Origin: Vicinamibacteria bacterium
GTDB lineage: Bacteria > Acidobacteriota > Vicinamibacteria > Vicinamibacterales > UBA8438
Direction of reading: 5' to 3'
DNA length: 51,331 bases
NCBI GenBank assembly: GCA_022820675.1
Contig: JAJEFC010000236.1
Coordinates: forward strand, 1 to 51,331
Made by a program: the position numbers and the translations under genes
Notes under the pieces: generated by a model
Told to the model about the DNA's origin: nothing
The model's input: only the letters and a program-made list of their open reading frames with translations
Database searches by the model: none
Part shown: in pieces, positions 38,454-42,306 of the stretch
How the letters are laid out: every line of letters starts with the position of its first letter
Position numbering within the stretch: the stretch's first letter is position 1

Positions 38454-39584
38454 TCACGCGAGCTGCGACAGGAACGTGACGGCCGGCACCCGCACGGGGC
38501 GGGTGTGGTCGAAGGCGTCTGCTTCGACGTAGGGCAGGTCGAAGGCGAGCTGGAACGCGTGCGCGGCGCCGGCCACGCGCTGGAAGTAGCTCAGGTCGGG
38601 GTTCATGCTGCGCCGCGCCGAGGACTTCACCTCGACCAGGAACCACGGCCGTCCGGCGCGCGTCACGAGGAAGTCGACCTCCCGCCCCGCCTTGTCCCGC
38701 AGGTGGAACACCTCGTAGGTGCCCAGACCCGCGTCGGTCCAGGCATGCGCCGCCTTCAGCAGGTGCGAGGCGACCAGGTTCTCGGCCCGGGCGCCGGGGT
38801 CGGCAACCAGGCTCCAGTCCCACAGGAACAGCTTCGGCTGTTTGCGCAGGGACTTGGGGACCTGACGGTGCCACGGCCGCAGCCGGAAGCAGTAGAACAG
38901 GCCCTCCAGCATCGTGACCCAACGCAATGCGGTGTCCGGGGCGATGCCCGCGTCGGCTGCGAGGTTGCTGTAGTTGGCCAGGCCCCCCGCGCGCTCCGCG
39001 ATCAGCTCGGCCAGCACCTCCACCTGCCCCAGGTCCCGGGTGCGGGTGAGGTCGCGGAGGTCGTCCCGAAACAGGAGCTCCGAGCGGAGCCGGCGCCAGC
39101 GATTGTAGAACCGGGTGGTCCCCTTCAGGAACGGCTCCGGGAAGCCGCCGAACCGCATCAGCCGGGGCAGCACGTCGTCGTCCGGCCGGCTCGGTGGGCT
39201 GATCTCCGTCTCGTCGTCGCCGGCGAAGGTCCGTCCCGCGCCGGACAGCTCTGCCACCGACAGCGGGTGCATGTGGTAGAGGAAGTACCGGCCCATCAGG
39301 CTGTCGCCCGACCGGCGGAAGAACCCCAGGCGCGCGCTGCCGGTGACGACGATTCGCGCTCGTGCCTCGTGGGCGTCGAAGAAGCCCTTGAGGAACGTCT
39401 TCCACTGCCCGAACTTGTGCAGTTCGTCGAAGACTACCCGCGGCGGCCGGGGCTGGACGGTGTGCAGGTCGAGGGCGTCGGCGACGGCGTCCGGTCCCCG
39501 GATGATCGTCCGGCGGTCGGATTGCCGGTCCCAGTTCAGGTAGCGATGGACGCCGGCCGCCGCCCGCGCCGTGGTCGTTTTGCC
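38454..39584 (-). pseudogene. DUF4143 (AAA_14) ATPase, C-terminal 93%, separated from its start by an insertion
   Basis: Starting from the duplicated target GGCAAAAC, this frame gives GKTTTARAAAGVHRYLNWD, then the Walker-B-like VVFDELHKFGQWKTFLKG, VVTGSARLGFFRRSGDSLMG and RYFLYHMHPLSVAEL. The DUF4143 nuclease-like domain ends with GREVDFLVTRAGRPWFLVEV. The missing first 29 codons lie at 42307-42393 on the same strand, beyond the IS1595-like element. Removing the element and one target copy restores a continuous 405-aa protein. The open frame runs into the element, so a fused product lacking a P-loop could still be made. Confidence 0.85.
39577..39584 (+). repeat. Left target-site duplication GTTTTGCC
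   Basis: GTTTTGCC directly before GGGACATC. The same 8 bp recur at 42299-42306 directly after GATGTCCC. An 8-bp duplication is characteristic of IS1595-family insertion. On the coding strand it is the GGCAAAAC of the Walker A motif. Confidence 0.9.
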
Positions 39585-39665
39585 GGGACATCGTTTGGAG
39601 ATTAGCCCCAATTCTGCGACATTCGCTCCGGCTACGCCTTTCGCGCGCGGCCGTACACGTACGGT

Positions 39666-39752
39666 AAAAAGCTGGGTGGGCCGTGCAGGTTTGCCCTGGG
39701 CCGGTTGCTGAGACCCTGCCCGGCAGGGTTCGACTCCCTGGCGGTCCACCCA
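39666..39752 (-). terminator. Multi-branched hairpin with T-run (terminator-like, tRNA-like T arm on the plus strand)
   Basis: On the minus strand GGGTGGACC pairs with GGCCCACCC (9 bp, one wobble) and AGC plus TTTTT follows, as in an intrinsic terminator. Inside the stem, CAGGG-AGTCGAA-CCCTG, CCCTGCC-G-GGCAGGG and CAGG-GCAAA-CCTG can form. On the plus strand the segment has a tRNA-like T arm (CAGGG-TTCGACT-CCCTG) and an acceptor-like stem ending in CCA, but no valid anticodon arm. It ends 5 bp after the 38-aa ORF. Confidence 0.5.
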
Positions 39753-39756
39753 ACAT

Positions 39757-39873
39757 CTATTTTTGCCCTTTCTTCGGAGTGGTGGGCTTGGGCTTTGGTG
39801 GACCCTGCATACAAGCCAGGGCAATGTTCTCCGGGGTGTTCGGTATACGCTTCGGTAATGTCCGTTTCAGCAT
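39757..39873 (-). CDS. Small basic 38-aa protein in the IS1595-like element
   Basis: ATG 39873 is preceded by GGAG at a 5-nt distance. The product opens MLKRTLPKRIPNTPENIALA and ends in a Pro/Lys-rich tail (KPKPTTPKKGQK). It has its own candidate promoter and a terminator-like structure 5 bp after the stop, which supports a real gene. I do not recognise the family. The charge suggests nucleic-acid binding, which is only a guess. Confidence 0.5.
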   Translation of the reverse strand: MLKRTLPKRIPNTPENIALACMQGPPKPKPTTPKKGQK

Positions 39874-39902
39874 GAAGACTCCAAGGGTACAGTGAACACC
39901 CT

Positions 39903-39932
39903 CTTCTACCACAGGTTGCCGTTGGGAGTCAA
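39903..39932 (-). promoter_or_regulatory. Promoter for the 38-aa ORF
   Basis: On the minus strand TTGACT (39932-39927), 18 bp, TAGAAG (39908-39903), about 30 nt before the ORF start. It overlaps the opposite promoter of the structured RNA, so the two transcripts diverge from shared DNA. Confidence 0.45.
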
Positions 39933-39944
39933 ATCTGCTATCAT
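39916..39944 (+). promoter_or_regulatory. Promoter for the structured RNA
   Basis: TTGCCG (39916-39921), 17 bp, TATCAT (39939-39944) with an extended-10 TGC in front. The predicted start is near 39951, exactly where the first hairpin begins. Confidence 0.6.
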
Positions 39945-39950
39945 CAAAAA

Positions 39951-40125
39951 GTGGCCGGGGGAGTCTCAACCCCTCCCCCGACCAAACGCCGCTGGAATCC
40001 CCCAGCGGTTGGGAGAAAGGAGGCGCCATGGCTGATGCCGCTGTAGTTTGACTTCGCCGAACCAAGAAAGTCGTTCACTTTTGGTTCGGCTAGTCGTTTC
40101 TCCCGCTATTATAGTATTTCTCGCC
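39951..40125 (+). ncRNA. Structured RNA with an internal seven-codon mini-ORF
   Basis: From the predicted start the transcript folds into three parts. Hairpin 1: GGCCGGGGGAG with CTCCCCCGACC. Hairpin 2: CCGCTGG-AATCCC-CCAGCGG, extended by CCAA/TTGG. Then GGGAGAAA (40011-40018) pairs with TTTCTCCC (40097-40104), closing a loop that contains an AAAGGAGG ribosome site and ATG GCT GAT GCC GCT GTA GTT TGA (40028-40051, MADAAVV). The loop also holds hairpin 3: GCCGAACCA/TGGTTCGGC plus AAAGT/ACTTT. The long-range stem adjoins the ribosome site. I recognise no known RNA family. Confidence 0.5.
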
Positions 40126-40174
40126 TGTCTTGGAAGTCAAGCTCTTTTCTAAGGATATACCCAAGAGATCAGTC

Positions 40175-40621
40175 TCAATCTGTCCGTTGTGCACAACTAG
40201 CTACTGTCCAATGAACCGTATTAGACCAATCTGTGCAAAGCCTTCCAGAACCGTCCGGGCAAGAGCGTACTCTCCAGTCAAAAGGAGGACTCGACAAACT
40301 CCGAAAAAGTGGTAATGTCAAATTGGAAGTAGGTCCATGTACAATTTGAGTAGTGCCCTCAAGCAACCAAGAATCGCTTGAACTTTGTCGATATTGAATC
40401 CGAAGTCGATAATGACTACGTGGCCGTTGATCGTTATTCAGAATACGAAATTGAAAGGTCCAGTCTTCACCTACATTAGCTCGGTAATGACCAGTACAAG
40501 CTACATTTGGAGTGTAACTAGCATCGATACTCGATGGCCCCAATCCACCACATTGAGTGAGAATTGTCGAAAGGATCAACACTGAAAGAACGACGCCAAC
40601 GACAGAAATATGGCGCAGCAT
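40175..40621 (-). CDS. Secreted or membrane-anchored beta-sandwich-like passenger protein
   Basis: A 148-aa protein from ATG 40621. MLRHISVVGVVLSVLILSTI is a hydrophobic leader, with a Cys shortly after (LTQCGG) that poorly fits a lipobox. The mature part has alternating strands with WTFQFRILNND, SHYRLRIQYRQSSSDSWLL, then PFDWRVRSCPDG and DWSNTVHWTV, reminiscent of a fibronectin type III or Ig-like domain. Codon use and GC differ from the chromosome, as for the rest of the element. I assign no function; it looks like IS cargo. Confidence 0.55.
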   Translation of the reverse strand: MLRHISVVGVVLSVLILSTILTQCGGLGPSSIDASYTPNVACTGHYRANVGEDWTFQFRILNNDQRPRSHYRLRIQYRQSSSDSWLLEGTTQIVHGPTSNLTLPLFRSLSSPPFDWRVRSCPDGSGRLCTDWSNTVHWTVASCAQRTD

Positions 40622-40894
40622 CTCTGGCCCCCATTTAGCCCCGACCTGAATTGGTCGTCGGGCTCGTTGCCAAACACGCCGCTCAGAGTGTGTGTGCCTC
40701 TTGCGGGTTCCGCCTTTTCTCCACCGAAGTGGATGTTGTATGGGGCGGAAAGCCCGACGTTCTTGGGGCACGACTACACTGGTCGAACATCCGACCGAAG
40801 CGACGTGTTTGGCGAAGGCAGTCTACTCGATTCAGTACGGCGGAGTCAACGACTTTTCTCGCCTAAATCGTGGCTTATTTTCTTTCGGAAACGC

Positions 40895-40923
40895 TTGACG
40901 TCCTGTTACACCTACAGGATGAT
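40895..40923 (+). promoter_or_regulatory. Promoter of the transposase gene
   Basis: TTGACG (40895-40900), 17 bp, GATGAT (40918-40923), then GAAAGGAAA as the ribosome site before ATG 40948. The spacer contains the dyad CCTGT-TACACCT-ACAGG, a possible operator. The stretch 40622-40894 contains no gene I can support. Confidence 0.5.
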
Positions 40924-40947
40924 AAATTATCGAAAGGAAACGTGCTT

Positions 40948-41902
40948 ATGGCCAAAGAGACTCGTGAGAAGATGACGCTTTTCCAGGTAATGGAGAAGTT
41001 TCCAAACAATCAAGCTGCCGAGCAATGGTTCAAGGATGTAAGGTGGAAGGGAGGACGGTTCTGTCCCCATTGTGGCTCTTATGGAACCTATGAAGTCGAG
41101 AGCCAAAAGCCTCAACCCTATCGGTGTAAAGACTGCAAGAAATACTTTAGTCTCAAGACTGGGACTATCATGCAAGGTTCGAGGCTGGGATATCGGGTTT
41201 GGGCCTTGGCGTTCTACCTCATGTCGACCAGTGTCAAGGGCGTATCCAGCTTGAAACTCCACCGCGATCTGGGCGTGGCGCCCCTGACAGCGTGGCACTT
41301 GGTCCGTCGCATCCGGGAAACCTGGATAAATAATAGTCCCGCTGGATTCAGCGGCGAGGTCGAGGTTGATGAGGCATATCTTTTGACGTACTGGCCCTGC
41401 TTGTGGTTAACCGAGTCATGATTCGGAACGTCGTGGTACGCGGGCAATTCATCCGAGTAAACTCTAGTTCCATCCTTGGTATTCTGCTTCACGAAATTAA
41501 CCAGGTTTGTGGCGGTCGTAGCTGGAATGACCCGAGCCTTGACCTTACCTGATTTCCGTTCCCTTACTCCAACCACGATAGACTCTCCCTCTTGGTGACG
41601 CTCCCGGAGCCTCTTATCGGCATGCTTGTTCTTTTCCCTGCCTCCAGGGCGATACCCATACGAACGGTATCGAGTCGTTTTGGGCTCTGCTGAAGCGTGG
41701 TTGCCACGGGACGTACCATAAGATGAGCAAGAAGCACCTGCCGCGCTACGTGGCTGAGTTTCAGGGCCGTAACAACCAACGACCACTGGGCGATCTCGAC
41801 CGAATGAAGCTTATGGTGCGGATGGGCGAGGGCAAGCGGTTGCGGTTCGAGGATTTACGGTCAGCGCCAGGGAGTCCGCAGCCCGTGGAAATCGTGTGGT
41901 AA
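40948..41902 (+). pseudogene. IS1595-family transposase, broken by an internal inversion
   Basis: The first part (40948 to about 41379) reads MAKETREKMTLFQVMEKFPN with a zinc ribbon (CPHCG and CKDCKKYFS), then GEVEVDEAY with the first catalytic Asp. The frame then fails. The middle is found on the opposite strand: [16 protein letters not shown], the second Asp in VYSDELPAYHDVPNH, ending QGQYV. From about 41651 the plus strand resumes with [20 protein letters not shown] (the catalytic Glu in GIESFW) and ends at TAA 41900-41902. All three catalytic residues survive, but on two strands. Confidence 0.85.
41380..41647 (-). other. Inverted segment inside the transposase gene
   Basis: About 268 bp read as transposase only on the minus strand, flanked on both sides by plus-strand transposase sequence in the correct order. 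The codon for the expected Phe after DEAY is lost at the left junction. No clear inverted repeats flank it. It may be a real small inversion or an assembly error. Confidence 0.75.
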
Positions 41903-41960
41903 ACTACGCGGCGAAATCGAGCCCGACGAGAGTACCAACATCACCGAGCTTTATGTAGTT

Positions 41961-41990
41961 GGCTCCGGGGTGGTGACTCACCCCGGAGCC
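41961..41990. other. Perfect 12-bp hairpin in the IS1595-like element
   Basis: GGCTCCGGGGTG and CACCCCGGAGCC are perfectly complementary around GTGACT. It lies 58 bp after the transposase stop codon. No T-run follows on either strand, so it is not a classic terminator. It could instead protect transcript ends or block read-through. Confidence 0.55.
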
Positions 41991-42013
41991 GACACATCGA
42001 TGGAGATTGGGAC

Positions 42014-42172
42014 ATGGAAATCCGTTGTACCGATGTGCCACCACAAAACGCAGAAAATCTGCGTCAGCAGCCGAAGATTCAAGCCAAGGAATCGAAGCCC
42101 GACATCCACGGGGACCAGCATGGAGACTTGTGGGGTCGACATAATGACCACCACCTGGATTACTCCTGCTGA
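42014..42172 (+). CDS. 52-aa hypothetical protein in the IS1595-like element
   Basis: ATG 42014 has GGAG 8 nt upstream. The product opens MEIRCTDVPPQNAENL and ends in a His/Asp-rich tail (HGDQHGDLWGRHNDHH) that could bind metal. I recognise no family. Overlapping frames are also open, so this is tentative. The remaining 125 bp to the right end show nothing beyond the terminal repeat. Confidence 0.3.
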   Translation: MEIRCTDVPPQNAENLRQQPKIQAKESKPDIHGDQHGDLWGRHNDHHLDYSC

Positions 42173-42298
42173 AATGTGAGCCCGCTTCATCGGCTTCTAG
42201 GGGAAGGTAGGACGTAAGTGTCCCGTGCGGTCGGCGGGGACGGAAGTGGCGTGTTCGCATGGGTTTACGGGGTCAGGCTAAACGTTGAAGGATGTCCC

Positions 42299-42306
42299 GT
42301 TTTGCC
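42299..42306 (+). repeat. Right target-site duplication GTTTTGCC
   Basis: The second copy of the 8-bp target, directly after the element's GATGTCCC end. The ATPase coding sequence continues from 42307 on the minus strand. Confidence 0.9.

Follow-up and report, generated by a model that had tools for sequence, protein, structure and literature searches.

Between two short genes of a 51,331-nucleotide stretch of acidobacterial DNA (the whole stretch analysed, hereafter the window) lies a segment whose strands both fold into several stable hairpins, and the question that it raises is what this segment encodes and on which strand. A sequence-only reading had taken it for a structured RNA of the plus strand carrying a seven-codon mini-ORF, divergent from the gene of a small basic protein of 38 amino acids (aa), the whole forming a cassette within an insertion sequence (IS) that might serve as a regulator, an addiction module or a transposition-control RNA. 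Small RNAs inside insertion sequences are known from few cases, well studied and mostly antisense controls of the transposase; a small RNA seemingly independent of the transposase would widen the known cargo of such elements. Here we weigh the reading of this locus on either strand, and describe a second RNA structure in the same element, R2. The coordinates of all features are collected in Table 1.

Table 1. Features of the element and its surroundings in the window, with copies of R2 at other loci
Feature	Position	Strand	Remarks
IS1595-family element	39585-42298		2714 bp, between terminal inverted repeats (TIRs) and target site duplication (TSD)
TSD GTTTTGCC	39577..39584	+	8 bp, exact; second copy 42299-42306
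Left TIR GGGACATCGTTTGGAGATTAGCC	39585..39607	+	repeats 23-24 nt
Right TIR GGGACATCCTTCAACGTTTAGCC	42276..42298	-	repeats 23-24 nt
38-aa passenger gene	39757..39873	-	IPxTPENIAxACMQGPPK motif family
Opposing extended -10 promoter-like match	39916..39944	+	TTGCCG-17-TATCAT, TG present
Direct repeat TTGGGAGTCAA	39922..39932	+	left of RNA module
Direct repeat TTGGAAGTCAA	40130..40140	+	right of RNA module; 10/11 identical to left copy
Structured small RNA	39944..40104	-	about 155-161 nt, 5'-GGGAGAAACGAC...GGCCACUUUUU
Putative promoter of small RNA	40108..40140	-	TTGACT-18 nt-TACTAT, TATAAT overlapping; 9/12 match; TTGACT...TACTATAAT
P1 stem, 5' arm GGGAGAAA	40097..40104	-	pairs with 40011-40018
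Hairpin within P1, GCCGAACCAA...UUGGUUCGGC	40056..40090	-	from the fold
P1 stem, 3' arm UUUCUCCC	40011..40018	-	after partly exposed CCUCC, anti-Shine-Dalgarno-like (unpaired probabilities)
Hairpin 2 CCGCUGGGGGAUUCCAGCGG	39989..40008	-	from the fold
Intrinsic terminator	39946..39984	-	TGGTCGGGGGAG-9 nt-CTCCCCCGGCCA-C-TTTTT; 12-bp hairpin, -25.1 kcal/mol
Mini-ORF MADAAVV	40028..40051	+	Shine-Dalgarno (SD) AGGAGG at 40018; probably not used
Passenger gene, small lipoprotein or exported protein	40175..40621	-	no Pfam family
R2, structured 5' leader of lipoprotein gene (likeliest role)	40637..40814	-	strongly covarying family
Transposase, N-terminal part	40945..41385	+	Zn_ribbon_IS1595
Transposase, middle of catalytic core, inverted	41386..41647	-	tblastn pieces on opposite strand, adjoining the others; breakpoints approximate
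Transposase, C-terminal part	41648..41902	+	
R2 copies elsewhere	L062:1719-1860, L012:2275-2417, L124:3207-3356, L126:3423-3565, L127:5313-5450 and others		

The host transposon

The segment lies in an element of the IS1595 family which splits an AAA_14/DUF4143 ATPase gene. The family assignment draws on a zinc ribbon at the start of the transposase (PF12760, E 2.7e-10), a DDE core that is partly inverted, TIRs and a TSD of about 8 bp; ISApl4, another IS1595-family element, likewise makes 8-base target duplications (PMC12561309). We considered GGGACATC as the target duplication and rejected it, as it is an inverted repeat and the true TSD is GTTTTGCC. For several relatives (L012, L062, L128, L063) a simple search did not find clean IS ends. 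The element resembles other IS1595 elements with passenger genes in its Zn_ribbon_IS1595 transposase, TIRs and 8-bp TSD, but differs from them in holding two structured RNAs and a partly inverted core.

In relatives a single frame encodes the segments that here read as three transposase pieces, on the plus, minus and plus strands; about 260 bp of the core are inverted, and flipping them would restore the order of the protein. With a transposase core that is partly inverted, this copy is probably dead or not autonomous. Its own genome (G000, a draft of 6.55 Mb in 441 contigs) has no second copy of the element.

Two observations on the elements may be added here. The flipped segment (41386-41647) is a candidate inversion, switch or assembly error. 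Genes of tRNA type occur close to related transposases, i.e., a tRNA-Ser(AGA)-like gene immediately upstream of the transposase in the related element of genome G012 (L012:1997-2082, minus strand) and a tRNA-Ser (CGA) near an IS1595 transposase fragment (L018:2371-2461).

A probable small-RNA gene on the minus strand

Both strands of the segment are strongly structured. The minus-strand fold of 39944-40104 reaches -81.7 kcal/mol (z -5.8), which no shuffle equals, and its parts stand out on their own, the 5' domain closed by P1 with z -5.4 and hairpin 2 together with the terminator with z -5.0. The several stable hairpins claimed for the plus strand are found there too, shuffles being much weaker (-78.6 kcal/mol, z -4.6 for 39940-40135; z -4.8 for 39951-40104), and the long-range stem described for them is present as GGGAGAAA with TTTCTCCC. 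Either strand of 39944-40104 folds much better than its shuffles (z about -5 to -6). The minus strand is the better by 5-7 kcal/mol, i.e., some 0.4-1.3 standard deviations (sd) of the shuffles, and strand assignment by folding energy alone was dropped as not decisive within about 1.3 sd.

It is the terminator that decides in favour of the minus strand. In a scan of both strands it is the only strong intrinsic terminator of the element, and it stands directly after hairpin 2, its stem being followed by CTTTTTG; a simple scanner, which allows loops of up to 8 nt, passed over it on account of its 9-nt loop. Upstream, the predicted RNA start, GGGAGAAA near 40104, falls 4-7 nt past the -10 box, so that promoter, start and terminator follow one another in order on this strand. 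Promoter-like matches are frequent in the element (9 against 1.9 expected). When the whole element was shuffled 1000 times with dinucleotides preserved, no shuffle had a promoter with a terminator of -25 kcal/mol or below at a distance of 60-300 nt, against 1/1000 shuffled elements at -20 kcal/mol or below and 14/1000 at -15 kcal/mol or below, counts which are guides and not clean p-values, the criteria having been set after the sequence was seen.

We therefore prefer the minus strand, and on balance we favour, from these sequence signals, a stand-alone small-RNA gene between the two passenger genes of the element. A sigma-70-type promoter would start the RNA at about 40104; the transcript would form a 5' domain closed by P1, with two hairpins inside, and then the second hairpin; and the strong intrinsic terminator would end it, leaving a free RNA about 155 nt long. 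The hairpins are a real structure, of which the strand and the mini-ORF had probably been misread.

A match to a known Rfam family, which would have spoken against a new structure, was looked for by covariance-model search of Rfam 15 and none was found at gathering level, a lax search giving just mir-1011 (E 3.4). The description of a compact structured-RNA and small-protein cassette within an IS holds in this respect, the element having TIRs and a TSD and the RNA no Rfam match. A tmRNA or permuted tmRNA with MADAAVV as its tag was rejected, since ARAGORN and Rfam find none.

Origin of the RNA module

Searches by DNA found no homologue of the small RNA in its own genome, 100 relatives, 396 genomes of the phylum, phages or plasmids. 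A covariance model built on the single sequence (R1) and run on 60 relatives and related IS loci recovered its own copy and no true homologue; two weak matches (E 0.06-0.09), in which little is kept beyond the GC-rich terminator hairpin, were taken as chance. The nearest related element, in genome G012 of the same family, is without the small RNA: the interval that separates its 38-aa gene from the neighbouring one reads TTCTACCAC-gc-AAGTCAAGC, as against TTCTACCAC-[RNA]-AAGTCAAGC in the window. In the window the module stands between two near-identical direct repeats. These sequences fit either a gain of the module in the window's element or its loss from that of G012.

The partly inverted transposase core, the single copy and the lack of a homologue would suit a degenerate remnant, i.e., a module decayed within a dead element and now functionless. 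We regard this as a minor though serious possibility, as the stems, the promoter and the terminator are all intact and decay would have eroded them.

The 38-aa gene and the small RNA

The 38-aa gene is genuine. Its product belongs to a family without a Pfam entry, characterised by the motif IPDTPENIAxAxMQGPPK, whose loci include L012, L021, L022, L023 and L024. The related element in G012 encodes a homologue of the 38-aa protein (MPSKLKIPPRIPDTPENIALACMQGPPKKKW..., 61% identity), and further homologues stand beside IS1595 transposases in genomes G200 and G182, one Chloroflexi genome and one Terriglobia genome, so that the family spans several phyla. The small basic protein of the earlier reading is confirmed by these homologues, which share [R/P]IPDTPENIA.A.MQGPPK. 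As a pattern, the small protein occurs at only four loci in 84,980 genomes, none with the small RNA, and has no match in IMG/VR. Its role as part of an addiction module finds no backing: the protein is basic and proline-rich without a hydrophobic stretch, its family adjoins IS1595 transposases, and the small RNA does not overlap the 38-aa start as would be looked for in a type I toxin-antitoxin pair.

Nor does the layout appear to be divergent, the structured RNA and the 38-aa gene most likely being separate units on the same strand. That common strand, the short distance (the gene starts 73 nt beyond the U-run of the small-RNA terminator) and the position of the terminator between promoter and gene would also suit a 5' leader of the 38-aa gene with a conditional terminator, and in the nascent RNA an alternative fold can pair the 3' arm of P1 with the 5' arm of the terminator. 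However, in 96% of shuffles such a fold is stronger: the interference of the 5' part with the terminator amounts to a gain of -4.9 kcal/mol, against a shuffled mean of -10.0 kcal/mol. So weak an interference fits an unconditional terminator and speaks against a conditional attenuator, and forcing hairpin 2 to pair with the terminator as an antiterminator carries a penalty of about 13 kcal/mol. Furthermore, no such leader accompanies the homologue of the 38-aa gene in the element of G012, and a promoter-like match at 39969-39940 on the minus strand, which overlaps the terminator end, could serve the 38-aa gene alone. A leader of this kind is unlikely, and a transcription attenuator was rejected on the interference just given, which likewise does not suggest the competing antiterminator of a riboswitch. 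If the RNA is a free small RNA, as we favour, its terminator may insulate the 38-aa gene from the lipoprotein transcript.

Beyond the 38-aa gene, the plus strand at 39675-39750 can be drawn as a cloverleaf resembling that of a tRNA, in which the T-arm (GGGTTCGACTCCC) follows the consensus and CCA is present; its scores against the models of tRNA-Sec and mascRNA, 20-22 bits, stay below cut-off. Read on the minus strand, the same stem is followed by CTTTTTA and could end the 38-aa gene.

The plus strand and its mini-ORF

The earlier reading placed a structured RNA on the plus strand from about 39951, with a ribosome-stalling or regulatory seven-codon ORF. A promoter-like match with an extended -10, as it described, does exist there, and is about as good as the minus one in the same scan; the plus fold is stable and the spacing from SD to ATG is clean. 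Ribosome-stalling leader peptides of the erm/cat type have such a short ORF with a strong SD within hairpins, which the plus-strand reading resembles, but here there is no downstream plus-strand gene to regulate. In a scan of the element, the plus strand after the hairpins has no terminator and no downstream gene, only sequence antisense to the lipoprotein gene. The string AGGAGG-N3-9-ATG with a mini-ORF turns up in 13% of shuffled elements, i.e., at chance level, and so the mini-ORF needs no explanation; it is kept by no homologue, and an exact-pattern scan of IMG/VR for the SD and mini-ORF gave no match. The string of SD, ATG, seven codons and stop at 40018-40051 is present as described, but its translation is not confirmed; the mini-ORF, complementary to the region of the 3' arm of P1, is probably not translated. 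We consider the plus-strand RNA decidedly unlikely.

Known systems and possible targets

The closest known system to the small RNA of the window is ISPpu9 of Pseudomonas putida, which encodes two small RNAs of about 180 nt, Asr9 and Ssr9, both terminator-ended and outside the transposase frame; Asr9 is antisense to the 5' UTR of the transposase, and Ssr9 pairs with Asr9 and is found in only some ISPpu9 copies, behaving as a movable module (PMC8450116). The small-RNA gene of the window is likewise inside an IS, outside the transposase frame and with a predicted terminator end, but pairing of this kind is not seen for its RNA, and the element belongs to another IS family. That both strands are transcribed here, a plus antisense RNA pairing fully with the minus RNA as in Asr9/Ssr9, is suggested by promoter-like matches facing each other on opposite strands across the hairpins and by the precedent of two mutually pairing RNAs of about 180 nt in one IS (PMC8450116), but is highly improbable, as the plus promoter falls within the terminator region of the minus RNA, with neither a plus terminator nor conservation.

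Our preferred small RNA, if made, may act in trans by base pairing through exposed single strands, for which AAACUACAGC and the partly open CCUCC beside P1 are candidate stretches. Other precedents, RNA-OUT of IS10 and art200 of IS200, are IS-encoded small RNAs antisense to the transposase start. The window's RNA is also encoded within an IS, with a promoter and a terminator as judged from sequence, but unlike them it lies about 800 bp from the transposase start and has no significant complementarity to the 5' part of the transposase (duplex -32.8 against a shuffled mean of -33.0, p 0.47; no overlap). Antisense control of the transposase was rejected on this pairing, which is no better than chance, and a transposition-control RNA is not upheld for this copy, whose core is partly inverted. 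The 38-aa start (p 0.44), the R2 leader (p 0.08) and the lipoprotein start (p 0.04, uncorrected for the four tests) complete the four regions tested inside the element, none of which gave a convincing target.

R2, a covarying RNA and probable leader

The probable small-RNA gene, an orphan whose host transposon is probably dead, is moderately interesting; the second RNA of the element is better supported and more deserving of further work. R2 is an undescribed, evolutionarily conserved RNA structure, built of a long variable stem around conserved inner motifs and a hairpin with GACCAATTCnGGTC, after which come an SD and the ATG. In an alignment of seven copies, 18 of the 44 pairs have changes on both sides; in 17 copies fitted to the resulting model it is 31/44, a figure less conservative than that from seven copies because the larger alignment had been fitted to the structure. 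The covariation score of the 17 copies is 0.442, compared with 0.07-0.10 for slid partners (0/500 shuffles). No Rfam match was found for R2 in the window or in five further R2-bearing loci.

R2 occurs in nine genomes of the family, in whose genomes every close IS1595 transposase that was found has a copy nearby (7/7). It is demonstrably within the element boundaries in the window and at G007:C91 (TIR GGGGATTATAAAGAAA, TSD CAAACTTG); other copies neighbour IS1-family transposases or precede resident genes for exported proteins, e.g., a PQQ dehydrogenase. Weaker matches to the R2 model extend to a second acidobacterial family (six genomes), some ahead of apparently exported proteins.

R2 is likeliest a 5' leader controlling exported-protein genes. 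We would tentatively go further, with slightly less than even confidence, and see two RNA devices in the element, the orphan stand-alone small RNA and, in R2, a new class of leader before variable exported proteins in IS1595 and IS1-like transposons, a portable cis-regulatory RNA that mobile elements would have spread and resident genes would use too. R2 matters more than the small RNA in that it is clearly covarying, undescribed and placed before exported-protein genes, with acidobacterial IS1595/IS1-like transposases, and it is directly testable as a regulator of cargo expression.

At four loci (L081, L090, L092 and L095) a short hairpin, GGTGACCAATTCCGGTCACC, directly precedes start codons, the large R2 domain being absent; it is a candidate for a leader or operator motif in its own right.
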